Assembly: GCA_026874595.1 (NCBI GenBank)
Contig: CM049307.1
Span: forward strand, 25,521,079 to 25,585,078
Length of the DNA stretch: 64,000 nt
Reading direction: 5' to 3'
DNA from: Sipunculus nudus
Taxonomy: Eukaryota; Annelida; Sipuncula; Golfingiida; Sipunculidae
Positions 4,275 to 57,007 of this stretch are shown piece by piece. Within the stretch, counting starts at the first letter, position 1; the number at the start of each line of letters is the position of its first letter. The notes beneath the pieces were generated by a model. The model was not told the DNA's origin, searched no databases, and was given only the letters and a program-made list of their open reading frames with translations. The translations under genes were made by a program, and so were the position numbers.

Positions 4275-4275
4275 A

Positions 4276-13545: not shown

Positions 13546-14672
13546 ACAAGGAACCCATGGGTCACAGCACTCAGCTGAATGTGACAGATATAATTGTATC
13601 GCAATTGTTGTATGTATGTCTGTAAGATTTAATTTTGACAGATGTTATTTTTTTGTATTAATTATGTAGTTGAGCGGAATAGTAATATAGAAGTATCAGT
13701 ATTTCAAATATGTACAAGAATGTGTCTAAGGAAAAGTTGTATACATTGGATCGGAAACAGCAATGCAATTAAAAAATGTAACTAATGCAACATATCTGGT
13801 TGGGCAGGTGGGTGGGTGGGGGAGGACAGTTTTGCCAGGTGATTCTACATTTGTAAAAGCAGTGTTGCATCACTAATACGTTTACCCAGACAAGGCTGTA
13901 GGGACCAGATATGGCTGGTCTGGAGGTTCAAAATGTAAATACATTAGAGCCTCAGAAAAACTTCAATAACTAGAAATAATTTTTAAGCTTTTACTTTCAA
14001 ATTTCAGAATTTAACAGATTATATCTATATATATACGGATTGTGAAAAGTAAATCAAATGTTCTTACAAAAAAAAAAAACGTGCCATGGTCAAACTTGGG
14101 CAATATTTAAGGTACCAATTTTATATTTTTGCCAATATTTAAAAAAATTTAACAGATTTTGAACAAATTTTTGGTATACAAATAAATTTTGATTAATTTA
14201 AGTTGTATTACTGAAAAAAAGTCCATAGCTTTAACACTTTTTCTTTTAAGTGACCAAATATCTTTCCTGATTTTTTACAAAGTCCATTATGTTTGGACCC
14301 ATAACTTTTTTAAATATATAATACAGACATAATTTCTGGCATGTACATAGGAACTATATAGAGGAATATTTACAGTAAATATGAAGAAAACCAGATGAGT
14401 GGTTTTGATATTAGGTAGTCCTGAAGTGTGAACATTTTTAAAATAAAAAATTGAGGTTTTTCCTTAATATCTCGAAGGAACGAAGTCCTATTGACCCAAT
14501 TTTTCGGCATGGTAGGAGATTTTGGGGACATCTAACTGTATGCCGAATTTCAGATTGGTAGGTCCAATGGTGTCAGAATGTGCCAGTCTTACAGACGGAC
14601 ATCCGGCCGGCCAGACGGATGATGGACAATGGACCACAACTATAGCTCAGATGACTTATAGTCAGCTGAGCT
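13546..14672. mobile_element. Dispersed element X3, compact full-ended member of family X
   Basis: Starts with ACAAGGAACCCATGGGTCAC followed by CACTCAGCTGA, and ends with a GACGGAC-type run and the hairpin at 14644-14672 (ATAGCTCAGATGACT, then AGTCAGCTGAGCT). The interior from about 14,070 matches the second 700-bp unit of X1 and X2 (for example, GTGCCATGGTCAAA and CATTATGTTTGGACCCATAAC). Both ends are present at only 1.13 kb, so this may be an internally deleted form. Confidence 0.7.
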
Positions 14673-14950
14673 AACAAACCATTCAAAATATTTTCTCCAT
14701 ATTTTTTATTATTAAATATATAATACTGCAAAATTGATTATATGGGTCCTTCATAAGTTGCCTCAGACCCCTGGGACCCTAGAAAGCCCACTGGCACAGG
14801 ACTCTCCAAAATTCTGACCAAAGATTCCTGGACTCTTGAAAAATTTTCCTTATAATTGAAAGCCCTGATATATAATATTTTAGATGTCATCTTATTACAT
14901 CTCCCTTCAATTATTATATAGCTGTGACCACTTGTTTCAGCTGTCATTGT

Positions 14951-15154
14951 AGTGGTGGATCCAGAGGCCCGGGTCAAGGGGGTCCTCACCCCCTGCCCCT
15001 TTGGAGCCGAAACAACCTTATTTTAGGGTTTCAAACCAACCCTTATGACCCTGACCCCCTCCTTCCCGGACCAGAGGACCTTTTTGTTAGGTTTCTTTTT
15101 TTGTCTTCCTGGGCATGACGCTCCCCTTTCCAGAATTCTGGATCTGTCCCTGCA
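14951..15154. mobile_element. Short MITE-like element with GATCCAGA inverted ends
   Basis: Begins GTGGTGGATCCAGAGGCCCG and ends CCAGAATTCTGGATCTGTCC, so GATCCAGA is inverted at the two ends. The interior is GC-rich with G/C runs, unlike its neighbourhood. CATTG flanks both sides. The pattern resembles hAT-type MITEs of invertebrates, but an 8-bp duplication was not confirmed. Confidence 0.4.
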
Positions 15155-15259
15155 TTGAACACATGATTCTAAATATGTGACCATGAAGGTGAAAGATGCA
15201 CCTCAGGAAACTGCTGCACTATGTCTAAATAGGCCAAAATAGCAAATATAATGTAGCTT

Positions 15260-16330
15260 TAGCTTTATAAACAGTTTACCTTTAAGCTGAAGTAAGAACT
15301 AGAATACGGGTAGTTGACAAGAGACTTCTTGTATCTGCCAAAATCAGAGTGGAATGGGTGAAGTGAGGTATGGATTGAGTGGCAAGGGGAAATAGAGTGC
15401 AGTGTGTTGCATATTAGCATGGATGTCTGCAGCCGAAATGTGATGTTGGTTGCACCACCTACCACAAAATCCAGAAAGCTGTCCAAGTTGTATACATATG
15501 CAAAATTTTAGGCAGATAAGCCAAAACACTACTTGTATATGAGTGATTTTATCCCACAGCAGACAAACAGAAGGACTTGTGCAAATATGGTGGCAGCTGG
15601 TGCCACCAATTTTGTGTATGATAAAGAGCAATGTTAGATCAATACTCATGCAAAATATCAGAGGGAAATGTCCAACCAGTCCTGAGATATAAGCCTGAAT
15701 GTCTGCAGCGTTAACATAAATGTAGGTGGCGCCATCTGCCAAAAAATCAAGAAAGCTATCCAAGATGTATAAACACGCAAAAGTTTAGCCAAGTCAAACC
15801 ACTACTGAGATATCTGAGATCTAGACACATGCCATAGTTTTGCCCAATCAGTCAAACGGTTCCCGAGATATGAGTTTGGATGTCTGCAGCGTAAACTAGA
15901 ATGTAGGTGGTGCCACCTGTCATAAAATCAAGAAAGCTGTCCAGGATGTATAAACCTGCAAAATTTTAGGCAGATATGTCAAACCACTGCAAAGATATGA
16001 GTGATTTAACCCAAGGCACATGAACAGATGGACAATGTGCAAACATGGTTGCAGGTGGCACCACTATTTTTTGTGTATGTTATAAAGTTTAGTCCAAGGG
16101 CTATATTAGTACAACAAATTTTTCCTGATCAGTCAAACGGTTCCCGAGATATGTGGGTTTATAAGTGGAAACAGACGCACAAATGGACACTGGGCAGAGA
16201 GGAAAGGTCAGAGGTCAAAGCCAATTGGTTGGGCACCAGTTCACAAGTGACCTGATAATATGCGTAAGTTTCGGAAAAATCAGTCCAGTAGTTCTCCGGA
16301 AACAAACGCAGCGGCAGCAGAACCCGGTCA
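15260..16330. repeat. Tandem-core dispersed repeat, several diverged units
   Basis: A unit containing AAATCAAGAAAGCT, then CAAGATGTATAAAC, recurs near 15,460, 15,740 and 15,925. Each is preceded by a GGTGGTGCCACC-like motif and followed by CAAACCACTAC-type and CCCGAGATATG-type phrases. Units with TGTGTATG at about 15,612 and 16,073 alternate with these. The ORFs over it are frame accidents in repeat DNA. It resembles the interiors of pearl/Helitron-like elements, but no terminus was identified. Confidence 0.6.
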
Positions 16331-16537
16331 AAAACTTTGTTTTGGTTGATACAATTATATATTGTATAATATTGTATGACATAACTTAACATAGGTCTAT
16401 ATAGTGCCATAATCATTATACCATATTTAATTTACAATAAAATTATATTTAATAGACTACTAATAAGTTATATAAAGAAAAATCATATTACATTTTAGCA
16501 AATTTCAAATGTCTTTATTGGTAAAATATGAGTTATC

Positions 16538-16545
<8 letters not shown>

Positions 16546-16588
<43 letters not shown>

Positions 16589-16638
16589 ATGTTAAAAATT
16601 GCATTAAGGATATATATATATATATATGTATATATTAT
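16546..16638. repeat. Two (TA)n microsatellites
   Basis: About 40 bp of TA repeats at 16546-16585 and a shorter tract at 16610-16638, in AT-rich DNA without a gene signal. Confidence 0.95.
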
Positions 16639-17569
16639 ACATGATATATTGTTAAAATATAAAAAACAAATGGATGTTTAAATATATAAATCATTTCATA
16701 TTAAGCGTATTTTATAAATCATAATAGTGTTTTAAATTTTACTGATATTTAATAGCATTTGTAATGTGTTCGTGGATTTACTTTATAGGTTTCACCGCAA
16801 TTTACCGAAACAGCTAAACTAAGATGCACAAGCCAACTCCAGCAGTCAAGGCCCACCTTTTCCAGACCCACAATGTCAACCTCCAGAGTGGACCAAGATA
16901 TATTGTTCATTGAACCTTTTTTTAAAATAGTGCATCTGTGGGGAGAGGGTACGGAATTAAAATCCGGATGTCGGAAGTCAGATGTTGGATGACGTTTGAC
17001 GTGTGAGTGTACATATACATATGTTTACAATCTTACCAAATATAGTATTATGCGAGATGCTCACCGTTCTCTACATACAAATAAAAAAAATAAAATAAAA
17101 TTATATTAAACTAGCTGATAAAACCGGTATACCGGGCTAATTGCCGGGGTTGGGGAAATATTTACTGAGGTGTACTGTTGGCTCATTTTTATTCTAAAAG
17201 TTAACAGAAAATATAGGTTTTCAACCTGTCTCAATAAGATATGTATAAATATTTTTTAACATTTATTTTGTGGGGTTGTCCTCGTGGCAAGAAATTCATG
17301 CCCCGGTATGGACCTATAGTCAGTGATGTTTACATTTCGAACTGGAATGAGACGCGGGGGCATACAGGTTTTCGATGATATTTGACTGGATTCTATCGTT
17401 GGATGTATAAAGATTAGGTTGATGTGAGAAACACATGAAAGATTAATTAAAGGGACATAATCAGGATCAATATTATGCCTTTACTTTCACACTATCAGTT
17501 CAGTTTTGCTCTATAAATAGTTTACAGCAAAACCATCACAGCACACATTCCTCACATACGGCTGTTTAA

Positions 17570-17655
17570 CACTTTGTTATGCCTGTACGTGTTGGTAAAC
17601 ACAGTCCACGTGTGTCTGATTTCCATAACAAGGCACGTGACCAGAGGTCCGATTG
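17570..17655. repeat. Dispersed repeat R2, copy 2
   Basis: Second copy of the 9,845-9,940 repeat, about 80% similar by eye. It lies 50 bp after a TATAAATA sequence at about 17,512, which may belong to the repeat rather than to a gene. Confidence 0.6.
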
Positions 17656-17659
17656 AGAG

Positions 17660-19170
17660 GGGGCAACACACTGTGTCTTAGCCAGCGGAATCTTATATTA
17701 TAATTTTTGGTCAAGCCAGTCAGGGCATCTCCTGCTTGACACGTGTCTTGGCTCCGCGCTGTACACAGCCCCACGCACTGTGTTTATGTTGACACCTGCA
17801 ATCGCGCCCGGTCCACTGTTTTGAACACTCGTTTACGGGAGAAAGCAAACGGTTTCAAAGCAATTTTTATGCAGGTATAGAATTATTTTAAAGGGAATAA
17901 GCTATTTTCCGTGTTAACTCAACATGCTTTATAGGTGATTGGGCCCCTGTAAATGTACGTTGTAAAGAAACTGTTCCTGAAGAAAGAAACAGAAATATGG
18001 ATTACTTGTAAGTAGCAGAAGCGGACCCAACGGGACTCCACGCAGAGGGTCCGTTCCCATTTTCAGCCAACGCAACCTTTTTCATCGTATCAATCAAATC
18101 TTGAGGCCTGAATTAACCCCCGACACGTACCACTTCACCCCACCCACGTCTGTTCCTGAAATTGGGACCTCGAATTAGGTTTTGTTATTAATACACCTAG
18201 CTGGGTTTAACTCTCCATTTCATAAAGCAAGAAACGTGTTTTTTTTTATTGACCACACATGGGTGAGAGTCTCTTCCAAATGTAAGTTCCGACAGGCTCA
18301 AATCCCTCAATGAAAGCAAGCGTTGTTCATATGAATAATAGTAGTTATTAGGTTGAGTGACCACGATGCACGCAGTCCGGTCATGGCCTAATGCAAATCG
18401 GTTGTGCTCGGTATAACCTCCGTGCAAGTCAGTAACAATGGAAAAATCACTCAAAATTATATGTACATTAAAATTATTTATTCTCATATCACCTATGTCA
18501 CTGCGGTGATAATAACATTGAAAATGATGTATGGCACAGTATTGTATACACAACGCGGTTTTAGAGAACATTGCGAACATGCAGACGTGAACCGAATTCC
18601 TTTTATAAGTATTAGATTATATAATTGCATCTTGGTGAAATATGTGTATAATATGTTACGTACGGAACCTAATATAAACAGATCACGTATGCATGATGAA
18701 CTTTGTAACAGATATAAAAAAATCAGATTCTGTAACACTAGGCAGCGTGAAATGTCAAGGGGAATGAATAAAGAAGTCAGTTGTTTTTTTTTTTCTTTTA
18801 ACAACCCTAACATTACAATACACTAAATCAATACAATTATACAGTAAAACAGCGGTATAACAACAAATCAATACAATCGCACAGTAAAATACACAAAGTG
18901 CACTGTGCACAGTACCTGGATACCACCACCGCCACAACGATAAGTTCTTTAATTGTATACTCTCGGAGAATGACAGCTGCTAGTCCAGTGTAAAGCTCTT
19001 GTAACAATCCAGAAAGTAAACTGAAGTCCAAATGCATATAAATCAAGGAGGAAGACTGACGAAAATCTATAATTGCCGCACTCGTCGGATAAGGTCCCAG
19101 AAACTGACACACGTTTCTGCGTCCGCTAGAAATCTTCTCTGCTGCTCCTCTCGGCTCAAAAACATAGCCC
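17660..19170. other. Region downstream of the heat-shock-type promoter; possible leader exon
   Basis: A minus-strand segment from about 19148 to 18916 ends in a plausible GTACTG donor and could be a transcribed leader. It has a small hydrophobic ORF without family resemblance. The rest, down to 17,660, has no recognised gene. Confidence 0.3.
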
Positions 19171-19270
19171 CTTTATATACTCTTCACCCCAAGCCGGGAA
19201 TTTTCCACTTCTCGAACAGTCTAAAAGTTCTTACACAGTAAACTCGCGTTACAGGAATCATCTAGAAAAA
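19171..19270 (-). promoter_or_regulatory. Heat-shock-type promoter: two heat-shock elements and a TATA box
   Basis: On the minus strand a TATATAAAG box (19171-19179) lies 20-40 bp downstream of a cluster of alternating TTC and GAA triplets (about 19198-19225, with TTCGAGAA at its centre). A second imperfect set, TTTCTAGATGATTCC, lies at 19255-19269. Such inverted nGAAn units in front of a TATA box are the binding arrangement of heat-shock factor. No HSP coding sequence follows. The nearest candidate exon (about 19148 down to 18916, donor GTACTG) could be a leader spliced to exon A at 12853. That link is an inference. Confidence 0.4.
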
Positions 19271-20890
19271 CATCGCCGTACGTGTCTCTACATACCATGG
19301 TGTACACGTGAGCTCGCCCCAAGCCAGCATGACAACAAGAGTTAAACCAGTACGGATTAAACCGAGAATGTAACAAGCGGCCAGGCAAGAAATCCCCACA
19401 ACACGAGCCACGCCCGTGTCACACAATAAAAAGAGCACCTGTAACAAATGTAATACATATCTAAGGCCTACGACAAATATATTTTTAAATCTTAGATAAT
19501 AAGATATTTTTGTTGTTCTTACTTGTCCCTTGCAGAAATTTGAAATTTCTTTTAGATTGTTATTTCAGTTACAGCTTACATGTAGCAAAGATATCATTTT
19601 AACGTATAAAAGCTTTTTTCAAATATAACCTCTTGTTAACACACATAATAATTATGGTTCTTTTTTAGTGATGCACAGCAAATCAGCCGAGCTCGGCATC
19701 AGGCTTGGCATGTACCCACCCGGCGGCAGACTTGGCATCCTATATCCGACTCCCGACATTAGGGTTTTAGTCTGTACCCGGGGGGGGGGGTATATGTATT
19801 CTCCACACAGAAGTATGATCGGGCAATAAATCAACCTGAATCGCCTTTATATAGAAAACGTATTTGGTTCTATATTAATATGATAATGAAAGTGGCATTT
19901 TTATTATTTCCAGTACCAATAATGCCCCGATATCCGGAATGACTTTAAACTTGAACTTTGAACTTTATTACACTCAAGACTCATGAAAGACATATAGTCT
20001 TTCATACAGAGTAACTGAGGAAATGTTAATTTCTGATTATAATTGCCCTCAGTTGACTTTTACAAACAGTAAAATAACCATACATAACTATACTTGTGTA
20101 AATATAAATATAAAAGAAATGTAAATAATGAGATCCTTGTTAAACACAATGGTATTATATAAAATAGTAAACCTCAATTGTGCGAGACAATGCATACAAA
20201 AATGTATGAAAAATTTGAACGGTGAACAATACATATAATTATACCGTTCGAAGTGTATGCTTGGAGAATATAACGCAGATGGCTGTTTTGATTGGCCTCG
20301 GTTTGATGAATAATTCATCAGCACGGAAGTTCCTGTCAAGTAATGCTATGTGGATGTTGACAACTGTTACATGTATGAATCAGAACTTATATTTGGCAGT
20401 TTAATCACTTTGGTTCATTTCAAATATAGTTTTCGTGGCATTCGTATACATATGAAGTTCATTTGAGACTTCCCAGCGTAATCTACCACAAGTGATCTGC
20501 TCAATCAAGATCAACATTGATCAAGAAGGCGTGTCCAAAACGAGCTGTCAACCAACACAAAAAGACTCAACCGGTGAAACTGAACAGCAGGTTGGTGTTA
20601 CAAATATAGAAAACTGAAAAGATATAGCAAGGAAGACAGAGTATCCGTGTCGCTGGGAGGTTCACTACGTAGGCTAATAGAAAAGGTGCTGCACCTGTAT
20701 TGCAAACTGGTAAATGGTTTATATCCAGCTACTTGTATTTTGATTTTGTTCCGTATTTTTATCTTCTGCTTACTTACTGAGTTATACTTGTATATACATT
20801 TTAATAATCAATATTATCTAGCGGTGTTGGTGGTACATGCAAAGATTTTGATATATGTGTATGGCATTCCTTCTATTACCCTGGTAAACG

Positions 20891-22298
20891 GGTCTGTCTA
20901 AAACACGGAGAATCCGCGGAGAGATTGAGAATTTGCGGAGAATCGGTGGAGAATTGGCGGAGTTTTTTTATGCAATGATACTTTTGAATACACATTAAAA
21001 TCACTTAAAATCCCCAACTATATTACTATTAACTTATTTGCGCACTGTTAAATGAGCTAAATATTTAAAAAATCTCTACATTATTAAACATTTTATGCTT
21101 AACAATGTAGACTCAGATGTAGACAAGTGAATGCGTTACACAAAAGCTAACACCCGTCTGAGTACCAGCTGACACTAACAGATCTTTAGTCGAAACCGCA
21201 AAAGACCTAATCTTTCAACAGTTTATTGTGCAAACTATATCAAAACCATACACGTATATCAAATTTACAGATGGTAAACGAAATATATAATATAATTTTA
21301 AAAACATAATATTTCCTACATATATTGATAGATAAAAAGACTGTCCTCATTTATAGTGTATAGACCCAATTTAAATGCACAAATGAAAGTTGAAACACAA
21401 ACATTCGACCTTACACACTTTATACACAAACAAAGATTGCACCCTTCAGCTAATGAATCAACTTGGCAGTAGGATTAAATAAAAAAAAAAGAAAAAATAG
21501 TAAATATATGTATTCGTGGTTAAACAATTATATTTTTCTTATTCTGTACAAAATACACCACACTGTTTTCTGACCTTAACAATACAGAGTATAATAATAA
21601 TAAAAAAAAAGAATATAGCACAATGTACACATACATACAGCAATAGTACAAGAACGTATTTGTACAATCTTCATAAAACCATTTTATTAATTAATTTTAT
21701 TAATTGTTTTTGTTATTTCAAAGACATATGCACATTTAAAATGAAACGACTTATTACATTTTTTTATCACAATCAGTCAGGTCTTTGAATACATCTCCTA
21801 ACCCACATACACATTCAATCCAAATGGTTACAGTTGCATTATATTTAGGCTTTGGTATTCTAGGAAAAAGTTTTCTTTTAGGAAATGGTGTAAAATGCCT
21901 GAACTGTAACAAGCAACTATAAGTGTTGTTGTATTAATATCTGGTTAAAATGTTCAGTTTGTTTAATTTCTGGATTGAAACAAAAATCAACTGCATTTGC
22001 AATTGCAAAAGCCCACAGTTTCTGACGCTAATCGTTGTCTCTATGGTACCTGGCACAAATAAAATCTTAAAGAGATAAACCTACTTGTCCGAGCATCTGA
22101 GAGCTGAAGTTTTCGTGAATATACAGATTTTTAATTATTTTGGTCATTTAACAGTGAACAAATATGTTAAGAGTAATATAGTTGGAAATTTTAAGTGATT
22201 TTTACGTGTATTTAAAATCATCTTTGCATATAAAAACTCTCCGCAAATTCTCCGTGAATTCTCCATCTCTCCGCGGATTCTCCGGGTTTTAGACATAC
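20891..22298. mobile_element. 1.4-kb element with inverted ends and a 12-bp flanking duplication
   Basis: The left end has GTCTGTCTAAAAC and then GGAGAATCCGCGGAGAGAT. The right end is its inverse (ATCTCTCCGCGGATTCTCC, then GTTTTAGACATAC). CCCTGGTAAACG lies directly outside both ends (20879-20890 and 22299-22310). Subterminal GCGGAGAAT repeats occur at both ends. The interior is AT-rich with only short ORFs, so it is non-autonomous. The superfamily is not recognised. Confidence 0.75.
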
Positions 22299-23830: not shown

Positions 23831-23922
23831 GTGATAGATAAAAAGTCACATTCGGTTAACCTTGCTGTCTGGTGGTGATGGCGAAGAATAACAGCAAAAG
23901 GGAGAAGAGCTCCCAAGAACAG
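23831..23922 (+). other. GGPS1: GGPS1 exon carrying the start codon, with spliced 5' leader
   Basis: A T-rich tract ending in CAG at 23830 is a good 3' splice site, so 47 nt of 5' untranslated sequence lie in this exon before the ATG and at least one non-coding exon must lie upstream. The exon codes for 15 hydrophilic, lysine-rich residues that are poorly conserved in the family. The donor is GTGACA at 23923. The first exon and promoter were not identified. A TATAAATA at about 17,512 and a GTAAAT donor-like site near 20,711 are only possibilities. Confidence 0.75.
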
Positions 23923-26900
23923 GTGACATGTTTATAAAATCCTGTATTGTTGTCATGTGGTTATAACATCAGACTAGAAAGCATCAGCTGGAAATAACCT
24001 GGCTTCTGATGACAGGAAATATTCAGACGTGTGTACAGTCAAGTAATATCAATAGGACAATTTATTGGTGCCAAGAATGTTTGTAACACTTGTGAGTTCA
24101 GTGTCTACAGTCAAGTGGGGAAACCATTTTAACCAGTCAGTTTATTACATGACAAACTAAAAATGATGATTAACTACTGAAAATAATAATTGAATGTGCT
24201 GGGAATGCTTTTCATTCATTGTGTATGTGCTAAGGCCAACACCCCAGCTCTGTGCTGTGCATGTTATATACTGTTTGATTTGACCTTTGACCTTTTATCC
24301 CTTTGCAGATCCTTCTGGAACCATATGAGTATATCTTACAGATTCCTGGCAAGCAGGTCAGGACTAAGTTAGCAACAGTAAGTTTTCATCAAATTATTAT
24401 GAGATACTTCCGCATGTCTGCATGTGTCTTCATTATCACTTACAGTAATACCATTTTGCATCTCAGCACCATTTTATGTTCGATCAGTGAAACATGTAAC
24501 CTTTGAGAGATATGTTCATACTAGATCATTCCTTTGTATGACATCATAAAATAGGATCAATTGCAAATATGTTTAATAGTATCACTCTGTAGCATATTGC
24601 ATTATTTAAACTTACCTGGTAGTTTAATTTAACTGAATGTGTTTTATTTTAGCTGGCACTGAGAAGCAAGGTGGTATTACCAGAAATGACAAAAAAAGGA
24701 AACTTAAAATACATATGTGTTTATTATGTATGAGAGTCACGTGTATCATATAGTGAAAGGAATAAATTCTGTTTTATGGAGCTTAGAAAAACTAATATTG
24801 GTTGTTATATTAATAGGCAATATTTAAAATTGATGGACAGAACTTTTTATTATATCTATCAATGAAATGGCAAGATACAAATACTGCAATTATCTGTTAC
24901 CAACCTGTTATGTCACTGCCATTACCTGATAACTGCACAGTTATCTTTATTTTATTGTTATTCACATGAAAATTTACACATTTTTAGATCTCATGAGTCA
25001 TGGTTATCTTATCAGGTTCATGAATAAAATAAAAACATTATTTTATTGTATATGACAAGACGGATATCACACTGAATGTGTTTTGTTTTTTGTAGGCTTT
25101 TAATTACTGGCTAAAAATACCAAATGACAAGTTGCAAATCATTGCTGAAGTTACTCAGATGTTACATAATGCAAGTCTCTTGTGAGTGGTTCTATTTATT
25201 TTCAACAAAAATGCAAATCAGTTTTAATGGGATTAATTCCGGCAAATTTTTATTCATTGTACTCACATATGAATGAATATTAAATGCTTTTTAGCTCAGC
25301 TGACTGAAAGTCATCTGAGCTATAGGGATCACCTTTTGTCCGTCGGCCGTCCGGCCGTCCTGGCGTCTGTCTGTTAACAGGGCACAAATCGTAACCGCTA
25401 GAACTGGAATCTTCTTACTTGACATCCAGGGAGGTCCATGAAAAATCTCCTTGGAAACCAGAAATTAGGTCTCTGATACCCATATCCTTCGAGCTATGGG
25501 GCCCCAAAGTACCCCCCAGAAAAGTCCAAAATTTCATACAAAAACTTCAATATCTCATTAACCACTTGACTGATGGTCATGGTTTTTGGCATACATATTG
25601 ATCATGAGAGGTCCCATCAGTTCCTGAAGACTGGTGGCGCCACCTGTATTTTTCGATTTTTTTACGAATTTTTTTCTCTATTTTTGAGACCTTTAAAAAT
25701 GTGAACATCTGTTAACAAGGCACAAATCGTAATGACTGGACTTAGAATCTTCATTCTCGACACATTGAGAGACCTATGAAAAGTCTCCATGGAAACCAGA
25801 AATTAGGTCTCTGTTACCCATATCCTTCGAGCTATGGGGCCCCAAAGTACCCCCCAGAAAAGTCAAAAATTTCATACAAAAACTTCAATATCTCATTAAC
25901 TACTTGACTGATGGTCATGATTTTTGGCATACATATTGATCATGAGAGGTTCCATCAGTTCCTGAAGACTGGTGGCGCCACCTGTATTTTTCGATTTTTT
26001 ACGAATTTTTTTCTCTATTTTTGAGACCTTTAAAAATGTGAACATCTGTTAACAAGGCACAAATCGTAATGACTGGACTTAGAATCTTCATTCTCGACAC
26101 ACTGAGAGACCTATGAAAAGTCTCCATGGAAACCAGAAATTAGGTCTCTGTTACCCATATCCTTCCAGCTATGGGGCCCCAAACTACCCCCCAGAAAAGT
26201 AAAAAATTTCATACAAAAATTTCAATATCTCATTAACTACTTGACTGATGGTCATGATTTTTGTCATACATATTGATCATGAGATGTTCCATCACTTCCT
26301 GCAGACTGGTGGCGCCACCTGTATCCTTCAATTTTTTACGAATTTTTTTCTCTATTTTTGAGACCTTTCAAAATGTAAACATCAGTTAACAAGGCACAAA
26401 TCGTAAAGACTGGACCTAGAATCTTCATTCTTGATACACTGAGAGACCTATGAAAAGTCTCCATGGAAACCAGAAATTAGGTCTCTGTTACCCATATTCT
26501 TCGAGCTATGGAGCCCCAAAATACCCCCAAGAAAAGTAAAAAATTTCATACAAAAACTTCAATATCTCAATAACTGCATCACTGATGGTCATGATTTTTG
26601 GCATACATATTGATTATGAGATGTTCCATCAGTTCCTGCAGACTTGTGGCGCCACCTTTATTGTTTGATTTTTTTACGATTTCTTCCTCTATTTTTGAGA
26701 CCTTTAAGGATGCTGGCATCTGTTAGCATGGCACAAATCGTAACGACTGGACCTAGAATCTTCATTCTCAATACACTGAGAGGTCCATGGAAAAAAATAT
26801 CCTTGGAAACCAGAAATTAGGTCTCTGTTACCCATATTCTTCGAGCTATGGAGCCCTAAAGTACCCCCCCAGAGTAGTCAAAAATTTCATACAAAAACTT

Positions 26901-29900
26901 CAATATCTCAATAACTACATCACTGATGGTCATGATTTTTGGCATACATATTGATTATGAGATGTTCCATCAGTTCCTGCAGACTGGTGGTGCCACCTAT
27001 ATTGTTTGATTTTTTTACGATTTCTTCCTCTATTTTTGAGACCTTTAAGGATGCTGGCATCTGTTAGCATGGCACAAATCGTAACGAATGGACCTAGAAT
27101 CTTCATTCTCAATACACTGAGAGACCTATGAAAAGTCTCCATGAAACCAGAAATTAGGTCTCTGTTACCCATATCCTTTGAGCTATGGGGCCCCAAAGTA
27201 CCCCCCCCCCCCCAGAGTAGTCAAAAATTTCATACAAAAACTTCAATATCTCAATAACTACATCACTGATGGTCATGATTTGTGGCATAACTATTGATCA
27301 AGAGGTGTTCCATCAGTTCCTGCAGACTGGTGGCACAACCTGCATTTGTTCGGGTTTTTTTTACGAATGTTTTATCTATTTTTGAGACCTTTAAAGATAT
27401 GAACATCTGTTAACAGGGCACAAATCATAAAAACTGGACCTAGAATCTTCATTCTTGACACACAGAGAGACCCATGAAAATTCACCATGGAAACCTGAAA
27501 TTAGGTCTCTGTTACCCATATTCTTTAGGCTGTATGGCTCCAAAATACTCCCCAGAATAATGGAAAATTTGATACAAAAAGTGCAGTATCTCAATAAATA
27601 CAACACTGATGGTCATGATTTTTGGCATACATATTGATCATGAGCTGTTCCATCAGTTTCTGCAGAGAGGGTGTGCCACCTCTATTTTTTTCAAATTTTT
27701 ACGAATTTTTTTTCTCTTTTTTCGAGACCTTTGAATATGTGGTTATCTATCAAGAGGGTACAAATTGCAACAACTGGACCTAGAAACTTCATTCTTGTCA
27801 TGCAAGGAGGCCCATGAAGAGTGCCTGTGGAAACTTGAAATTAGGTCTCTGTTACCCATATCCTTCAAGCTATAGGACTCTGAAGTATCCCTCAGAATAA
27901 TGGACAATTTGATACAAAAGCTGAAGTATCTGAACAACTAATACGGAGATCATCATGATTCTTTGCATGGATATTGACCATTAAGTGTTTTTAGCTCAGC
28001 TGACTGTAAGTCATCTGAAGTATCCCTCAGAATAATGGACAATTTGATACAAAAGCTCAAGTATCTAAACAACTATTGCAGTGATCACCATGATTCTTTG
28101 CATGGATATTGATCATGGAATGTGTAATCAGTTTCTGCAGTATGGTGGCGCCACCTGTATTTTTTTTATTTTTACAAATTTTTTTCTCTATTTTTGAGAC
28201 CTCATAAGATGCGGTCATCTGTTAACATGGCACAAATCTTAACAACTGGACCTAGAATCTTCTCTCTTGACATGCTGAGAGGCCCATGAAAAGTCTCCTT
28301 AAAAACTTGAAATTAGGTCTCTGTCACCCATAACCTCTGAGCTATGGGGCTCCAAAGTACCCCCCAGAATAATGGAAAATTTGATACAAAAGCTCAAGTA
28401 TCTGAACAATTATGATATTGATCACCATGATTCTTTGCATGGATATTGATCATGAAATGTTTCATCAGTTTCTGCATTCTGGTGGCGCCACCTCTATTTT
28501 TTCAATTTTTAGCTCAGCTGACTGAAAGTCATCTGAGCTGTAGGGATCACCTTTTGTCCGTTGTCTGTCCGGCCATCCAGGCGTCTGTCTGTTAACAGGG
28601 CACAAATTGTAACCACTATACCGGGAATCTTCTTACTTGAAATCCTGGGAGGTCTATGGAAATTCTCCTTGTAAACCTGAAATTAGGTCACTGTGACCTA
28701 TATTCTTCGAGCTATAGGGTTCTGAAGTACCCCCCACAATAATGCAAAATTTAATACAAAAGCTCAAGTATCTGAACAACTAATGCATTAATCACCATGA
28801 TTCTTTGCATGGATATTGATCATGGAGTGTTTCATCAATTTCTGGAGATTGGTGGTGCCACCTATATTTTTTTTATTTTTTACGATTTATTTTTCTCTAC
28901 TTTTGTGATCTTTAAACATTTGGTCATCTGTAAACAGGGCACAAATCATAATGACTGGACCTAGAATCTTCTCTCCTCACCTCCAGGGAAGCCCATAAAA
29001 GGTCTACATGGAAACCCGAAATAAGGTCCCTGTTACCCATATTCTGTAAGCTATGGGGCTCTGAAGTACCCCCCAGAATAAAGATTTGGTCATATATTAA
29101 CAGGGCACAAATCATAATGACTGGACCTAGAATCGTCTGTCCTCACCTCCAGGGAAGCCCATAAAAGGTCTACATGGAAACCCGAAATAAGGTCCCTGTT
29201 ACCCATATCCTTCATGCTCTGGGGCTCCGAAGTACTCCCCAGAATAAAGATTTGGTCATCTGTTAACAGAGCACAAATTATAATGAATTGACCTAGAATC
29301 TCCTTTCTTGATATGCTGGGAGGCCCCTGAAAAGTCTCCTTGTGCACCTGAAATAACATCTCTGTTACCCATATCCTTCATCCTATGCGGCTTTGAAATA
29401 CCCCCCAGAAAAAAACATTTGAATTTGTTAACAGGGCACAAATCATAATAACTGGACCTAGAATTTTATTTTTTGACATGCTGGGAGACCCCTGAAAAGT
29501 CATCTTGTAAACCTTGAAAATAGGTGTCTGTTACCCATATCCTTCATGCTACAGAGCTCCATAGTACCCCAATGAATATTGGATGATTTTATACAAAAGG
29601 TCAAGTTTGGAAAAAGTATTTCATTCAAATTTGACATTCAGATGATAAAATTACTTTTGTCAATGTCTTCCTGGTCAGCTGAGCGTCATGACCCCTGGGT
29701 CACTTGTTGTCAGTTATTACACATAAATATAAATTAATTTAAGGAAAAATATACAGTAAAACCTCGTTGTGTCGAAGTCGAAGGGACTGGTGAATTTACT
29801 TCGACACAACCAGAGTTCGAGACAACCGATGTTCATTATATTTAACCTTCTTGAGCCGCTATTATTATCGATAAATACTGCTCATGTATAGGGCCTATAT

Positions 29901-46745: not shown

Positions 46746-46987
46746 TATCCACATTACTTTATGTATTACTATCCATGCACTAAATTTCACTTCTTTATCC
46801 CCATCTGACCATTTTAATGTACAAGTTACTGACTGTCTGTGCACTGAATTTTCCATTTTGTTTTCTCCATCTAATCATTCTATATTATGTGTCACTGACT
46901 GTCCATGCACTGAATTTTCCATCTAATTCCAGATCTTATCATAGTACTCGGTTCTTGATGGATAAGTTGAGTATTGAGTGGTTCAGG

Positions 46988-47099
46988 TCAAAACTCTGGT
47001 AGCTGTCCCTCATGGTCCACGTGGTACAACATGTCTCCCAAAGTGTGCTCTAACATAGACTCATCGACTGCCTCGCACATCTACAATAATAAACAGTTT

Positions 47100-47147
<48 letters not shown>

Positions 47148-50100
47148 ACACACACTGATATTGCGCTTACATGTCCACCTGCAGGAGTGGCCAAAATGGT
47201 CATATTAGTAGGGTGCACATGCACATGTTAGCAGAAGGTTTTTATAATGATGTACATTAGTCCGAGACCTAATAGAATGGTGGTCATGATAGCAGGGTGG
47301 TCTTCAAGCAAGATTTCACTGTTTATATTAAAGCATTGTTGGCTATTACCACCTCTCTTTCAATTGAAATGTTACCTGTTTAAGCAATATGAGGACACCA
47401 CCATGGGATGTACCAGTCTCTAGCCTTTCTACCAGGCTTTACCATTATTGTTTTATATGGAAGAATAAGTAGATGCATTTGCTCATGGTCTATGCTGAAT
47501 GACAAAGCAATATATCAGTGTCCCTTATGGAACAATATACTGTTCATAAATGTTTAACATCAGTTAATTAAATTAATGGCATCTTCAGGGTTCTGCTCCT
47601 GCACTTAAACACAAACTTGCATGTTCTTGAGATATTCTAACCATTATGCTATAACAAAATATTTTGTGTTTTATGAATCACTTTTTGTTAGATAAACTGT
47701 ATATGTGTATTGTTTTATACAGCCACTTACAGGTCTAAACGCAAGGTCTTTTGGCTTATGCTTGAACACAGGTCCAAAATTGACTGAAACCTGAAAATAT
47801 GAAACTGTATTAAAATTAATCCATATATATACAAACAGCATTTGCTTAAGTATATATGCAAGCAAATAATTCACAAGAGCACTGTATCAGTGAATAATAT
47901 CCCTGTTTCCGAGTCTGGTGTCTTATATGTGTGACCTCTGACTTAATTTGATATGCACAAATTATGCCGGGAATTGAATTAAGGCGAGAAACTCCAATGA
48001 TAATATTTGTAGTGAGTATCAATACTATCATGAAAATCCATCCGTTTTGGTCAGTCTTTATGGTGCCACCAAAGTCTGGCGACCTTTAACCTCATAAAAT
48101 ATGCATTACTTTGCTATGTAGCAAAATTAGATGAGATTTTACATTGGTTAATATCTTATGAGTTTAATGGAAACCCATCATATCCCTGGTAAGTTATCAA
48201 ATCAACACCACAAAGAAGCCTGGTGAACTCTGACCTCATTTCTGCCAAGAACCAAACTCAGGGCAATTAATCAATAGGTCAACTGGTACAGTGAGTTTTG
48301 TAAAAAAATCCATAAAATTCCTGGTAAATTCTCACAGTAACGCTAAAAGTAAACGGATGGATGGAAGGATACCGCCTATACCATAATTCAACCTGTCTTG
48401 GATAGGTGTATAACAAGCTATCTAGCGATTCAGTGTTGTGAAAAAAGCTTGATTAGGAGGACACCACTGGCTTCATTCCCTGTGCACACCATGACTGTGG
48501 CGCCACCTTCAGCATATTTCTGATATACCTATTACCTAAGCATGAGGTGTACAGCAATCTTATCCCGTCCCAAAATCCCCTTGATACTTTGCAGCTCGTG
48601 CTCGTTTGACATGTGACATGCTTTTGTAACCAATTGAACTCTCACATTTCATTATTATTCAAATATGTTTTTGTGAAATTTAGAATTATCTGAGCAGTTT
48701 TGCTTTATGCAATGATGTTAGGTTCTTGTAAATTTTTCTATTGACCTAAATATATTATAAATGCTACTTACAGTTTACATCTGTGCAAAGTAGTCATATA
48801 TTATGGGTTTGTATTACTTAAATTTATTGGATCAGTTTCTCTCCCAGGTTGAGCATTTTCCACCATTTTAACCTAAACATTTTGATGGAAGCCCCCTCTC
48901 ATACAACCTTTATTAGCCTCCCTTGGTTGCAGTACACTCCTAGCTACTCTTAAATCCTGCCAGTCCAAGATATCAGACACATTAGTTATCTTTAAACACC
49001 CCCCCCCCCCGAAAAAAAAAAATGAGGATCTTTTAATTATTGGAATATAAACATTTGTTTAATAGCAAGTCTAATGTAGGAAATCCTAATGAAACATCAA
49101 TGTTTATTTTTATATACTTTACAATATTATATAAACCACTGTTAATAGAAAGAGGAAACCACAGTCTGACCCTGGAGATCCCAGTGCATTGTATGTCTGG
49201 CCTGTAATAAGGATGTATTAACCACAGCATCCTTCCTGGACCACGAAAGAAACACATCAAAACTGGGCTCAGCTGTGAGATGTACTCCGTTCCTTATTAA
49301 TCCTGATTTATACACGGTTACTCAATCCATCGGTATTGCTTAATCATGGGGATGCAATATCTGAGTTCTTCAGAACTGTTCCTTATCGGTATCTTATCAA
49401 AGGAATACCTGGAAGTCTTATATCATCCTTAAAGAATACAGGTGGAACTTTATCACCAAGCCTGTTTTTTAATACCTAAAGACTCAATAATCAGTGAACT
49501 AATGCAGCACAGCGTAAACTTAAAAGTTCTGCACGCTACTATCTAAATATTAAGTTTGAAAAACTCGTCATATTAAACCCCTGCTTTATACCTGGTTGCT
49601 GATTTGTATGGACTATTCTTGGAAATTTTTACCTTTGACCCCAAAAAACCTTTTTTGTGTAACGGTAGTTTAAAAGAGACCTTACAGCTCTGATAATACC
49701 AAATAATATCTCAAACAAATCCATAAAATATCTAGATCACTCACAGGAAATACACCTATACTAAGTCTAATTCTGTGATTTGATGGACTGAAGCCAGATG
49801 CAATGCAGACTTTATTTGAATTTGTTCAAGATATGAAAAAGCTAGAAAACTGTAACTTTAGTATTGATCATGAGGAGCCTGAGAAACTGGCACTGAAATA
49901 ATTTTTTCGAACAAGAGGACTGCAAACATGCTTAGTACACCTGCTAATGTCTTAGGACCTCTAACCTCATTAAATTGCTGAGAATTAAAGTGACATAATC
50001 ATGAAAAATATTATGTATTGAAGCCCTGGTAAGTTTTCGAGGTGACACTACAGTTAACAGACTGACAGATGGACTGATGAACCATGGGTATACCATAATA

Positions 50101-50719
50101 TGTCCAGTCACAGACAAGTTCACATGGAATTGTCCATAACTGGAATGGATTGAAGAGAACGTGGCAGTCAAAATCATAGAAGTCTATTTTGTGACTTACC
50201 TGAGCATTTTTGAATAAGGAAATGGCTGGGAAATATGTTCCTTCAAATATGTCAGTCCATGCAGTCCCCTGACTCTCACCATTCTTGTAGAACACTATCT
50301 GTAATGTCAGTGAAAGGGAATATAACGAGGAAGTATGTCATTACCAAGTATTAGCTCTGATAATGATATTTTCAAATTTATAAAAATATGGAAATGGTCA
50401 TTTGTCATTTTGCTCATACTGGGGCTTAAAGTAGTGAAAAAAGGACATATTCTATGATTTGTATGAACTTGAACTACAATCAACCTGAAAATTTGATTTG
50501 TGATTCCTAGTTTACCATGAGGCCTTGTAATATACAATACATTTTGTGATTAAGGACCAATGACAGATGTAATAAAAGAACCTATAAAGCTGGTGTTGAA
50601 GGGACCAACAATCTGAAACACCAAGGTTCAATAAATGTTCTTTGGCAATTATTTCAGTAATTTAACTAATCACTGCTTGGCTTATGTGGGCAACACAAGT
50701 GGTGGGGCAAAATCAACTT

Positions 50720-50811
<92 letters not shown>

Positions 50812-51448
50812 TAATATTGCAATGATATATAGTATACTGATGCACATAAATCAAGCTACATTTTTAGTTGTCTTAATGCTACAAAAGAAAAAGTGTACCT
50901 TATTCTGATTTTAGGATTTGAGTGTGGTAAAAAAGCATTATTCCACTCTACACTTTGCCCTACATATCCCTTTGCCATCTAACTTTACCTGCAAATGTCC
51001 TTAAAGTACATTCACATCACATCCCTATGGGCACCCAAAATAAACCCTGACAGGTTTATTTCTCACGTTTCTCAAAACCACTCATGGGGGCTGCCATTAA
51101 CAAACTAAAAACCAGATGTCAAAGGTCAAATGTCATAATTAAGGGTATACCACAAATAATTATGATTCCATTGTTGGTGTTGACACTTCATAAAGCCACA
51201 GTGTGTTTTAACATTTAAGTTTCTTCAAGTCCATAAAGCTAATTATAATTTTTATTTTTTTATTTATATTTTAGTTCTTATGACATTCAAGAGTCTTGAC
51301 AACTGTAGGCATCTTGTTGATATATCATTGAGCTCTGAAGATAGCTTTTACTGACCTTGCTGCCTGGGGCTGTAACTAAACCCCTCTCTGCCTCTGATAC
51401 ATGGTCCTTCTCTTCATAATACAAATGGCTCTTGAACTTGACAAGTGG
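46988..51448 (-). CDS. ASH2L: ASH2L C-terminal part: four last coding exons (end of SPRY domain and DPY30-binding helix)
   Basis: ASH2L is the core SPRY-domain subunit of the nuclear MLL/SET1 (COMPASS) histone H3K4 methyltransferases. Exons in transcript order: 51448-51356 (31 codons), 50298-50200 (33), 47790-47731 (20), 47080-46988 (30 plus stop). All are phase 0 with AG/GT borders. Recognisable segments are [37 protein letters not shown] and [14 protein letters not shown], which match the end of the ASH2L SPRY domain in order. The last exon carries [12 protein letters not shown], the C-terminal helix that binds the DPY30 dimer. The tail after it is short and acidic and differs from the vertebrate proline-rich ending. 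About 80% of the protein, including the PHD-like and winged-helix regions and most of SPRY, is not in the window. No exon was recognised between 51,449 and 64,000, so the rest should lie beyond the right edge. The gene converges tail-to-tail with GGPS1. Confidence 0.93.
47104..47143. repeat. (TA)n microsatellite beside the last ASH2L exon
   Basis: Pure TA dinucleotides 24 bp upstream (minus strand) of the terminal ASH2L exon, so it sits right at the branch-point side of that intron. Confidence 0.95.
47991..50199. other. ASH2L intron with diverged repeat fragments
   Basis: Two related fragments (about 48,060-48,400 and 49,930-50,100) share phrases such as TGACCTCAT or TAACCTCATTAAA, CCTGGTAAGTTnTC and TATACCATAAT, and the first has a GGTGCCACC motif. 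This looks like old copies of a tandem-core repeat. No exon was seen here. Confidence 0.4.
50722..50815. repeat. (TA)n microsatellite
   Basis: About 90 bp of TA repeats in the ASH2L intron between the exons at 50,200-50,298 and 51,356-51,448. Confidence 0.95.
51010..51160. repeat. Dispersed repeat R1, copy 2
   Basis: Diverged copy of the 7,440-7,650 repeat, in the same orientation, in the intron just downstream of the first ASH2L exon in the window. Directly left of it (50,915-50,960) is a segment with GTGTGGTAAAAAAGCATTA that recurs at 63,930-63,975, so the full repeat is probably longer than the R1 match. Confidence 0.6.
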
Positions 51449-51930
51449 CTGTCAAAAAAGGGAACATGAGCTGTTACCACATTTGTTAATAAAATTTCAC
51501 ACTCAGTTTTCTTCTTGCTTCATGACACTTTTATTAATCATATAATGTGTACTAATAAAACCCTAATACACAAAACAAATTTAGAGATTTGCCGATTGGT
51601 CATTTATAAGCTTACCACACAACTATGCAGTTCTTTTAAATAGTAGCTCTAGACTCTTATCAACAGGATCATTTATTATTACACACAATGGCAACATAGC
51701 TAGAATAAGTGCTGTGAGGGGAGTAAAATCCTATATGAGATTTCAAGATGAAAACATAAAAGTGATTATTATACAAGTAACAGGTTTCAAGCATGGCTGA
51801 TGGTGCAATGAACAAAATTCTCCTTACAGATTGTTCTTACTCTGAGCATATATCAGTACACAAAATAAGAAAATATTAATTTAAAGTGTAAATTTTCAGT
51901 CATATCTAGCATGTAATATTTTTGTATTTA

Positions 51931-54900
51931 ACAAGTGACCCATGGGTCATGACACTCAGCCGACTGACATGTTGACAATATGTCCTTTCACAGACAACTA
52001 ATTAAGGTAATGTAGGTGGCATTGTTCATGCATATTAGCTTAAGTTCATCAAGACCCATAAGCACAACAAATCTGATGTCAAACCAACCAGCCTTTCATG
52101 AGGAATCTGGCAATTTGTGTGTATTTTGCCTTTCTAGGGTGCTGAAACATACCCCAAAACTCTAAGTATGTAGTTCACTGTGACCCAATTTCAGGTTTCT
52201 GGGGAGAAATTTTGAGGTACTATCAGGATGTAAGTTAGAAGATTCTGGGCCCAAAGGTTATGATTTGTGCCCTACTTTGGTATCAAATTTTCAATTATCT
52301 GAGGGTACCTTATATTTATAAGCCATATAGCACAGAAAATATGGGTAACAGAGACCTAAATACACATATCCAAGGAGATTTTCATAGACCTCCCTGGATT
52401 TAAGGTTAGAAGATTCCAGGTCCAATGTTTATGATTTGTGCCCTGCTTTGGTATGAAATTTTTTAATTATGATGGGGGGTGCTTATAAGCCCAATAGCTC
52501 AGAGAATATGGGTAAGGGAGACCTAATTTCAGGTTTCCATGGAGACTTTTCATGTACTTCTCTGGATGTAAAGTGGGAAGATTCTATGTCTAGTTGTTAT
52601 GATTTGAGCCCTGTTAACACAGCATCTTTTGAGGTCTCAAAAATAGATAAAAAAAAATAGTAAAAAATCGAAAAAAATACAAGTGGCACCACCAGTCTGC
52701 AGAAACTGATGAAAAACTCCATGATGAATATCCATGCAAAGAATCATGGTGATCAATGCATTAGTGGTTCAGATGCTTGAGCTTTTGTATCAAATTTTTC
52801 ATTATTCAGGAGGGTTCTTCGGAGCCCCATAGCTTGAAAAATATGGGTACCAGAGACCTAATTCCAGGTTTCCAAGGAGACTTTTCATGGGCCTCCCTGC
52901 ATGTCGAGCCAGAAGATTTTAAGTCCTGAGGTTACGATTTGTGCCCTGTTAACAGATGACCACATCTTTTAAGGTCTCAAAAATAGTGAAAAAAAAAATC
53001 ATAAAAAATAATAAAAAAATACAGGTGGCACCACCAGTCTGCAAAAACTGTTGAAACACTCCATGATCAATATCCATGATAAGAATCATGGTGATCAATG
53101 CATTAGTTGTTCAGATATTTGAACTTTTGTATCAAATTTTTCATTATTCTGGGGGCTTTGGAGCCCCATAGCTGTAAGAATATGGGTAACAGAGATATAA
53201 TTCAAGGTTTCCAAGAAGACTTTTCATGGACCTTTCTGGATGTTAAGTGAGAAGTTTCCAGGTCCACCATTTATGATTTGTGCCCCGTTAACAGTTGACG
53301 GCATTTTTGGAGGTCTCAAAAATAGAGGAAAAAAATCATAAAAAAAAATTGAAAAAATACAGCTGGCACCACCAGTCTGCAGAAACTGATGTAACATCCC
53401 TTGATCAATATCCATGCAAAGAATCATGGTGATCAATGCATTAGTTGTTCAGATATTCGAGCTTTTGTATCAAATTTTTCATTATTCTAGGGGGGGGGGG
53501 TACTTCGGAGCCCCATAGCTTGAAGAATATAGGTAACAGAGACCTAATTCTAAGTTTTTCAAGGAGACTTTTCATGGACCTAACTGGATGTAAAGTAAGA
53601 AGATTCCAGGTCCAGCGTTTACGATTTGTGCCCTATTAACAGATCATGGAATCTTTAAAGGTCACAAAATAGAGAAAAAAATCGTAAAAAAATAGAAAAG
53701 TACAGGTGGGGCCACCAGTCTTCAGGCACTGATAAAACACTCCATGATTAATATCCATGGAAAGAATCATGGTGATCAATACATTAGCTGTTCAGATATT
53801 TGAGCTTTTGTATCAAATTTTTCATTATTCTGGGGGGTACTTCGGAGCCCCATAGCTCAAAGAATATGTGTAACAGAGACCTAATTCCAGGTTTCCAAGA
53901 AGAACTAATAATGGACCTCTCTGGATGTAAAGAGAGAAGATTCCAGGTCCAGCGGTTACAATTTGTGCCCTGCTAACAGATGACGGCATCTTTTGAGGTC
54001 TCAAAAATAGAGAAAAAACAAGGGACCTATGGGTCACGACGCTCAGCTGTTATATATAATAAAAAAATATTATTTAGAAATGAGGCACATGCTGGTTTTG
54101 TGTGGTAATAAATATAAGCTGTATTATGAGTTGTTGTTGTTTAGCTTATGTATGATTTTGATAGTACCTTTGGAGACAGGGAAGAGGATTGATTTCATTT
54201 ATTTTATTAACAAATGGAGTACTACTGTCACACAGATTTTGACTTGGCCATATAACTTTTAAGCAGAACATATAATATAAGAGTTTAACTATTTATTAAA
54301 AAAATTACAAATATTGTCCCAAATATAATTTTTATTAAAATTAATAAGAGAATCATATGATTTTTTAAAATGAAATATAACTGATATGATTATTAAAAAA
54401 ATATTAAAGAATATATTCATGAATGCATTCATGAATACATTTTGAAAGTATTTGCACGAGTATTCATATACTTTCATTTTTACCTGAATTCCCATTCTTT
54501 ATGCAAGAAATTTTATAATGGAGTACATAATCATATTCGTATTTAAATACAATTACAAAGTATTCGCACCACGTCTGGTATTTATTCAGTTTTCACCAAA
54601 CAATGATGTTGAGAATCCAGAATATACAAAATTCACACATTTAAATAATGATCATAAGTACCTGGTTTTATGGCTTTTATTTATATTAAAATATAACTGT
54701 AAAAAATTCATTTTGGACTAATTTCACATCAATGTACACACTAGACACAGTAGGAATCTAGATTAATATTATCAACTGCATCTTTGTCTATCATTAATTT
54801 CCTTCATATAACCCTTAATGATTAGTAATGAATAATATGATTTACTTCTTTATCATTAAAAATGAACTGAAAAATGCCATAGGTGACTGCATGGTGTTAT

Positions 54901-57007
54901 TTGGAATATGTGACATTCTACCCATCGATACAAGATTTTTATATCATCAGTAACTGCAAGTTAATTTCCTGTTATTATAAACTAACAAATTCCTTTTCTA
55001 TTTTTCTTTAATTTGTTGTTAAAAACCAATAAAAATTTATTAATTTATTGTTTATTGTTATGTTGTTGGTTAAAACTACTAGATGAGTTGAGTTGAACAC
55101 CTGGATCAACTGTGGCTGGCCATCAGCTGCCTGGATTCTCCCCTCAAGCGTGCATAATTTGATGAAAGGTCAACAAGGTCAACATACAGGCGACTCAAGA
55201 GGGGCTTGAGAGAGCCAAAGTCTGACAGGGTCTCATAAAAAACATTAATAAAAGCTACAATATTTGGCAAATTTCTTTCAGCTTTCTAAACTAAAAAGCT
55301 GAAATCCTTATGTGTGCAAGATATGAAAATTATATCAACAGTGCTCACGGGAAACAAACGTGCCATGGTCACAGTTGGGCAAAATTTAAGGTACTAATTT
55401 TATATTTATACTAATAACTTATAAAATTTGAAAAATTCAGAACTAATTTTGGGTATTCAATTGAATCTTGATTAAATAATGTTACATCCCTGACAAAAAA
55501 AATCTCTAGCTTCAGCAATGCCCTTGTTAAGGGAGTAAATATATTTCTTGATTTTTTACAAAGTGCATTATGTTTGGGCCCATAACTTAAAAAAAATACA
55601 CAATACTGACATCATTTCTGGCATGTGCATAGTGAATGTATAGAAAAATATGTATATTATATATGATCAAAATCAGATCAGTGGTTTTGATATTAGGCAG
55701 TCTTAAAGTGTAACATTGGGTTTTTAATGGAAAAATTAAGTTTTTCATTGATATCTTGAAGGAATTAAGTCCTAGTGACCAAATTCTTGGCATGGTAGGG
55801 GATTTTGGAGAAATCTAACTGTATGCCAAATTTAAGGAACTTAGAGCTGAAGCTCGGGAGCTGAGCTCTAGCAAACTGCATAACACTAGCAATATGTGAC
55901 ATGGTGCTTGAAAACTTGAATAAAATCTACAGTTTTTGATGAACTGGTTTCAAATTTTTGGTGTTAACAGTTGAAATGCTAACAAAAACATGCTGTGAAA
56001 ATTAAATCCACAGCAGTTACAGCAAAAAAACGTGCCATGGTCAAAGTTGGGCAAAATTTAAGGTACCAATTTTTTATTTTTGCTAATATTTTTAAAAATT
56101 TTAAAGATTTTGATCTAATTTTGGGTATACAATTTAATTTTGATTAATAAAAGTAATATTACTGGAAAAAAAGTGCTTAGCTATAACAAGTTTTGTGTTA
56201 AGTGATAAAATTTCTTTCCTGATTATTTAAAAAATGCATTATGTTTGGGCCCATAACTTTTTTAAATTAAATAATACAGACCTAATTTCTGGCATGTACA
56301 TAGGAATTATATAGAGGATTATTTATAGGAAATATGAGGAAAAACAGATGGGTGGTTTTGATATTAGGCAGTCCTAAAGTGTGAAAATAGGTTTTTAATA
56401 AAAAATTGAGGTTTTTCCTTAATTTCTCAAAGGAATGAAGTTGCAAAGACCCAGTTTTTGGCTTGGTAGGAGATCTTGGGGACATCTAACATTATGCTGA
56501 ATTTTGGATTCCTAGGTCTTACGGTTTCAAAACGTGCCACATCTACGGACGGACGGACGGACGGACGGACAGACGGACGGACGACGGACAATGGACCATG
56601 ACTATAGCTCAGATGACTTATAGTCAGCTGAGCTAAAAATGGTAAAAAAACGAAAAAATACAGGTGGCGCCACCAGTCTGCAGAAACTGATGAAGCACTC
56701 CATGATGAATATCCATGCAAAGAATCATGGTGATCAATGCATTAGTTCTTCAGATACTTGAGCTTTTGTATCAACTTTTCTATTTTTCTGGGGGGTACTT
56801 CGGAGCCCCATAGCTCAAAGTATATGTGTAACAGAGACCTAATTCTAGGTTTCTATGGAGATTTTTCATGGACCTTTCAGGACGTAAAGTTAGAAGATTC
56901 TAAGTCCAGCGGTTAAGATTTGTGACCTGTTAAATGGACAGACGGCCAGACGAACGACGGACGAAGAGTGATTGCTAAAGCTCAGATGACTTACAGTCAG
57001 CTGAGCT
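51931..57007 (-). mobile_element. Element Y2: inverted relative of Y1, split by nested X2
   Basis: Starts with ACAAGTGACCCATGGGTCA and CACTCAGCCGA, then shows short units (GATTTGTGCC landmarks at 52263, 52433, 52603, about 170 bp apart) followed by long units (52938, 53276, 53622, 53961, about 340 bp apart). The last long unit is cut at 54017 and resumes at 56,635, then ends in the hairpin at 56979-57007. Without X2 the element is about 2.46 kb. Orientation is opposite to Y1, with the same order of short and long units from its palindrome end. Confidence 0.75.
54018..56634. mobile_element. Element X2, 2.6 kb, inserted in Y2
   Basis: Starts ACAAGGGACCTATGGGTCAC and CGACGCTCAGCTG, and ends with GACGGACGG runs and the hairpin at 56606-56634 (AGCTCAGATGACT / AGTCAGCTGAGCT). 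On both sides lie the two halves of one Y2 unit, so the limits are well supported. The interior matches X1 from about 54,500, without the H1 insertion, and includes the doubled 700-bp unit (about 55,230-55,850 and 55,890-56,600). No long ORF is present. Confidence 0.75.

Follow-up and report, generated by a model that had tools for sequence, protein, structure and literature searches.

The 64-kb window of Sipunculus nudus DNA analysed here (the whole stretch of 64,000 nucleotides, C2:25,521,079-25,585,078) contains several copies of a repeat family with shared ends, whose types are here called X, Y, Z and V. The four types are very probably non-autonomous Helentron elements (HINEs) of a single superfamily, mobilised in the manner proposed below. 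The family belongs to a known type, that of the HINEs; of use are the polarity of copying indicated by its internal ends, and a homologous core at the start of interiors that the original prediction had regarded as unrelated cargo.

Each element starts, just after a T-run, with a hairpin, AGCTCAGCTGACT-NNN-AGTCATCTGAGCT, followed by TATAG, a GTCC/GTCT microsatellite and the core sequence. It finishes with TCAGCTGAGCG, then TGACCCATGGGTCA, then CTTGT, with T after. The hairpin is thus the 5' end and the palindrome with CTTGT the 3' end, the reverse of the orientation first suggested. Several features by which HINEs are recognised are seen here: the hairpin provides an inverted repeat (IR) beside the 5' subterminal inverted repeat (subTIR), a palindrome (TGACCCATGGGTCA) is located near the 3' terminus, and a microsatellite and/or central tandem repeats are present. 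The palindrome ends 5 bp from that terminus, and the 3' subTIR begins around 33 bp from it. Coding capacity is absent: no stop-to-stop frame of at least 110 aa lies within X1, X2, Y1 or Y2, the two such frames of X0 both fall in its internal 180-bp tandem repeat, and 13 partial V interiors hold a single frame of at least 100 aa (109 aa). The hairpin was said always to be bordered by an A-run, as it is (five or more A) at six of seven hairpins, X1 having only AA. Similarly, the doubled unit ascribed to X interiors is found in X2 (~670 bp) and not in X1.

Motif scans of the window show both end types at the places first given for them. The 3' palindrome by itself is barely above chance and hence weak evidence (seven matches with up to three mismatches, 2.59 expected, a number reached in 3 of 100 shuffles). 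The subTIR adjoining it gave four matches where 0.79 were expected, and the two hairpin arms gave 27 and 30 where 15.2 and 10.1 were expected; none of 100 shuffles reached any of these counts. The 5' hairpin folds better than shuffled sequence in X (z = -4.4), Y (-3.6) and Z (-4.4), while the fold of the 3' palindrome segment is no better than that of shuffled sequence (z 0.02). Across the 1.43-Gb genome, the 3' end was matched 54,828 times with up to three mismatches, compared with 216 for a reversed-pattern control, and exact 5' ends of X, Y and Z type numbered 17,077, 13,031 and 3,821, respectively, with no control matches for any. This is a real and very large HINE superfamily of tens of thousands of copies, and the idea of a family defined by shared ends is borne out. 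There is also a fifth copy, X0, which extends beyond the left edge of the window.

To assess how the ends pair, a profile of each was run over 264 kb, the window plus 100 kb to its left and 100 kb to its right. The profiles matched 24 five-prime and 21 three-prime ends, and bracket matching per strand, with a 7-kb limit, produced 19 nested same-strand pairs (18 if one near-symmetric hairpin is assigned to the other strand). Random placements (5,000) averaged 5.1 nested pairs with a maximum of 12, label shuffles averaged 8.7 with a maximum of 15, and reversed polarity yielded three. Because nested pairing exceeds all three controls, the 5' and 3' ends work together; ends that occur independently of each other, which would have spoken against the family, are not the rule. 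Five 5' matches on the plus strand are unpaired, namely two surplus hairpins of Y1, one of e64099 (a second double-hairpin Y element in the 264 kb), one weak match and one other.

The ends also share a T-rich target. Of the 24 five-prime matches 20 were tabulated, 19 of them with T just before, and of the 21 three-prime matches 19 were tabulated, 17 of them with T just after; T also comes after the 3' end at all of 30 further loci. At the empty site reconstructed for X2, joining the two sides of Y2 restores one continuous 337-bp unit; apart from the ambiguity of the T-run, there is no target duplication at this one site. A T-rich target without target modification, as in HINEs, is therefore indicated by the T context together with one empty site. 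Genome-wide, 85 3' junctions nested in Y units were found (control 0), at which the T is there by construction because the search pattern demanded CTTGTT. The 51 that are readable group by spacer length into three places, with 15, 20 and 16 cases, all where the unit is T-rich. A palindrome close to GGTGGCGCCACC occurs in V and Y repeat units alike (L003, L022, L020, L029, Y1 and e64099), near the T-run that nested insertions use.

Two other classes of element were considered. The subTIRs are inverted relative to each other at the two ends, and the bivalve pearl elements were originally called miniature inverted-repeat transposable elements (MITEs; PMC7492417), so that a cut-and-paste transposase recognising AGCTCAGCTGA inverted repeats might be envisaged. 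True terminal inverted repeats with target-site duplication are not what is seen, however: the ends are asymmetric, hairpin against palindrome plus CTTGT, the nested empty site shows no duplication, insertion is into T-runs, and internal 5' but not 3' junctions have been amplified (see below). We consider such DNA transposons very unlikely. Just as unlikely are canonical Helitrons with diverged ends, outside the Helentron branch. Their rolling-circle polarity would appear identical, and a Helitron can carry one 3' and several 5' termini (PMC6591975), but 5' TC and 3' CTRR are both lacking, insertion is into T-runs rather than between A and T, and the subTIRs and 5' hairpin match the definition of HINEs (PMC4067079). 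The lack of CTRR, first noted as a mismatch, is no anomaly since the HINE and Helentron ends described in the latter source are also without it.

On the preferred reading as HINEs, a Helentron Rep/helicase supplied in trans would nick at the T-run ahead of the 5' hairpin. One strand would then be copied toward the subTIR, palindrome and CTTGT, which would act as terminator, and be joined into another T-run with no target duplication. A 5' end being only a start, copying would pass through any internal one and halt at the first 3' end that it meets, which would allow elements with additional internal 5' ends to multiply.

Internal ends provide natural evidence on this direction of copying. Y1 combines three hairpins with a single palindrome end. 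Within the arrays of both Y1 and e64099 there is an additional 5' hairpin, at almost matching positions in the unit. Genome-wide, 846 exact inner 5' junctions of Y were found (control 0). Among 100 of these listed, the spacer is identical in 61, within two edits in 23 more, three edits away in two and clearly different in 14, from which it follows that one composite arose and then multiplied. Internal ends make up 846 of the 13,031 exact Y 5' ends (6.5%); since only exact matches to the unit motif counted, this share is a minimum. The 51 readable 3' ends inside Y units, by comparison, have 43 spellings, the commonest seen five times, and look like independent nested insertions rather than an amplified composite. 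Amplified internal 5' ends and unamplified internal 3' ends are predicted if rolling-circle copying runs from the hairpin to the palindrome, since it could then pass a start but not a stop. Alternatively, the inner junction might owe its spread to host DNA having been duplicated, segmentally or in tandem. Some inner junctions are only 0.4-1 kb apart, and five Y-type 5' ends ~10.4 kb apart on C1 (3,705,037-3,746,532), probably a tandem duplication, suggest that local duplication happens. Yet 93 of the 100 listed places of the junction are dispersed over the two strands of C1, and Y1 and e64099 each have an outer 5' end and differ in their 20-bp host flanks, which makes duplication an improbable explanation and favours transposition of the composite.

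The interiors are less distinct than they first seemed. Nucleotide BLAST at E 1e-8 gives no match between X1 or X2 and the Y1 interior, and in that sense their description as unrelated stands. It fails at the start of the interior, where profiles of the first ~170 bp, compared for X, Y and Z, match across all three types; the core also runs along the Y array, and the 5' modules of the three types align beyond the microsatellite. X and Y interiors do align, then, in part, an outcome set beforehand as one that would refute the first reading. A single lineage of HINEs, this suggests, can have bodies that look different. X, Y and Z probably descend from one ancestor consisting of hairpin, GTCC microsatellite and a ~165-bp core, which would later have been amplified differently, as 337/166-bp arrays in Y and as ~670-bp doubled units in some X. 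The converse, that X, Y and Z are unrelated cargos captured independently between common ends, agrees with the BLAST result, and capture of filler is discussed for oyster HINEs (PMC7492417), where both scenarios are left open. With a homologous core in all three types and alignable 5' modules, we regard independent capture as rather unlikely and consider it likelier that the arrays grew from the element's own core. Captured sequence may nevertheless make up more distal portions of X, Z and V. The single end-recognising machinery first envisaged is supported by the sharing and the ordered pairing of the ends, by the T-run targets and by the number of copies, and only its wholly unrelated cargo has to be given up.

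Several points weigh against this interpretation. By eye, the subTIRs measure 12-13 bp in Y, but in X and Z the two have just 9-10 bp in common, or include a mismatch, compared with 11-15 bp in published HINEs. Core matches between X and Y include several weak ones (E from 7e-5 to 0.01), and those between X and Z reach at best E 1.2e-4 and 3.3e-5. The counts of 5' and 3' junctions rest on different exact motifs, with X-type 3' ends left uncounted. Finally, Rep domains occur in the genome, but the long Rep/helicase member that had been anticipated did not emerge: these ends were not found to enclose a Rep gene, one Rep element having been probed, in part. Neither end profile had a match in 6.4 kb beside its intact Rep frame; the 3.5 kb closest to the frame seems to be internal to the Rep element, and the element's own ends were not reached.

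Eight Rep matches have open frames of at least 1,882 aa, among them those at C11:50,385,293 and C7:31,578,448, with frames of 2,235 and 1,882 aa. At locus L051, 3.5 kb recurs at 98-99% in three other places and, by eye, holds repeats of several hundred bp. Also by eye, C11:50,374,800-50,377,699 (L052), beside a Rep element, contains another HINE-like family, which has its own distinct subTIR, a GCTTGCCGGAAATC-type hairpin and a 3' end of TGACC..GGTCA palindrome plus CTTGT, in two copies apparently arranged head to tail.

The elements of the window are collected in Table 1. The 180-bp tandem repeat inside X0 occupies 873-1714, and 3917-4279, directly past the element, holds inverted partial copies of it.

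Table 1. HINEs of the window and their ends (window coordinates)
Feature	Position	Strand	Remarks
X0, HINE cut by window start	1..3612	-	3' end ~480 bp outside, to the left; another tandem repeat inside
X0 5' hairpin	3584-3612	-	hairpin-arm matches
X1, complete short HINE, 1,127 bp	13546..14672	-	
X1 3' end	13546..13584	-	subTIR, palindrome, CTTGT, then T
X1 5' hairpin (subTIR + IR)	14644..14672	-	X-type sequence tested by folding
Y1, composite HINE	25293..29707	+	337- and 166-bp tandem units
Y1 outer 5' hairpin	25293..25321	+	TTTTT just before
Y1 second 5' hairpin	27993..28021	+	truncated, within a unit
Y1 inner 5' hairpin	28511..28539	+	upstream spacer 1 letter off commonest genome-wide junction
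Y1 3' end	29669..29707	+	T after
Y2, HINE interrupted by X2	51931..57007	-	337-bp units
Y2 3' end	51931..51968	-	
Y2 5' hairpin	56979..57007	-	
X2, complete HINE	54018..56634	-	doubled ~670-bp unit; nested in A/T-run of Y2 unit
X2 3' end	54018..54050	-	
X2 5' hairpin	56606..56634	-	GTCC-type microsatellite inwards of it

Near one contig end (C1:96,429-6,929,314), elements of X and Y type lie in common blocks of orientation, which extend to about 1.1 Mb. The 100 listed Y 5' ends at 0.1-6.9 Mb of C1 form 18 strand runs where 49 are expected. With same-strand neighbours less than 12 kb apart merged, 67 items form 18 runs against 32 expected (1 of 20,000 shuffles); merging below 30 kb leaves 54 items, with 18 runs against 25 (460 of 20,000). 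Among the listed C1 matches, Y pairs 5-200 kb apart are on the same strand in 81-89%. For 100 listed X ends at 0.1-3.2 Mb, the strand agrees with that of the closest Y end in 84, and in 47 of the 51 that lie less than 20 kb from it. The agreement is weakened by a strand bias, with 84 of these X on a single strand, and 2 of 52 circular shifts also give 84; beyond 1 Mb it is 36 of 51. Strand-ordered listing is not the cause, since the reverse complement of the pattern gave identical places on opposite strands. Farther along C1, strand coherence is modest: 34 of 52 composite-Y pairs 5-500 kb apart are on the same strand (reached in 99 of 5,000 shuffles), as are 18 of 28 Z-Z pairs at 5-200 kb (544 of 5,000) and 26 of 39 pairs of Z with composite Y under 200 kb (172 of 5,000). 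Around the window it is weak or absent, with 11 of 15 same-strand pairs below 20 kb, 12 of 20 at 20-50 kb and 9 of 26 at 50-100 kb. Conceivably, a regional strand asymmetry such as replication-fork direction (single-stranded T-runs in the lagging-strand template) sets the strand of insertion and is recorded in orientation domains, although we think this unlikely. All four nested elements in the 264 kb are oriented like their host element (one hairpin being taken as plus strand), and self-nesting into the T-runs of older copies could thus yield orientation blocks; this, or local duplication, is the simpler alternative.

Among known systems, the family resembles the HINEs of Thomas et al. (2014; PMC4067079) in its subTIRs, its palindrome near the 3' end, an inverted repeat adjoining the 5' subTIR as in DINE-1, its microsatellite and central repeats, and its T-rich target without modification. 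It is unlike them in the short subTIR identity of X and Z and in having an autonomous partner as yet unlinked, and its palindrome and 3' subTIR lie closer to the terminus than in the mite HINEs described there (8-35 and 38-60 bp, respectively). That paper states that biochemical studies of Helentrons are still needed. Plant Helitrons with several 5' termini (PMC6591975) similarly combine multiple starts with a single terminator, but are of canonical type with other ends and another target. The bivalve pearl elements (Gaffney et al. 2003, via PMC7492417), later classed as non-autonomous Helentrons (PMC7492417), are alike by description, with ~160-bp central repeats in short arrays. Cg_HINE of the Pacific oyster (Vojvoda Zeljko et al. 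2020; PMC7492417) shares the left flank of subTIR, IR and GTCY/GTCC microsatellite, the array resembling satellite DNA, the right flank of subTIR and palindrome, and oligo-T insertion; its 'group 2' likewise has related flanks around unrelated repeats and, as far as that account goes, its autonomous partner was not found either. The Sipunculus elements have instead differing arrays with a homologous core, units of 337 and ~670 bp, and composites with internal 5' ends, here counted.
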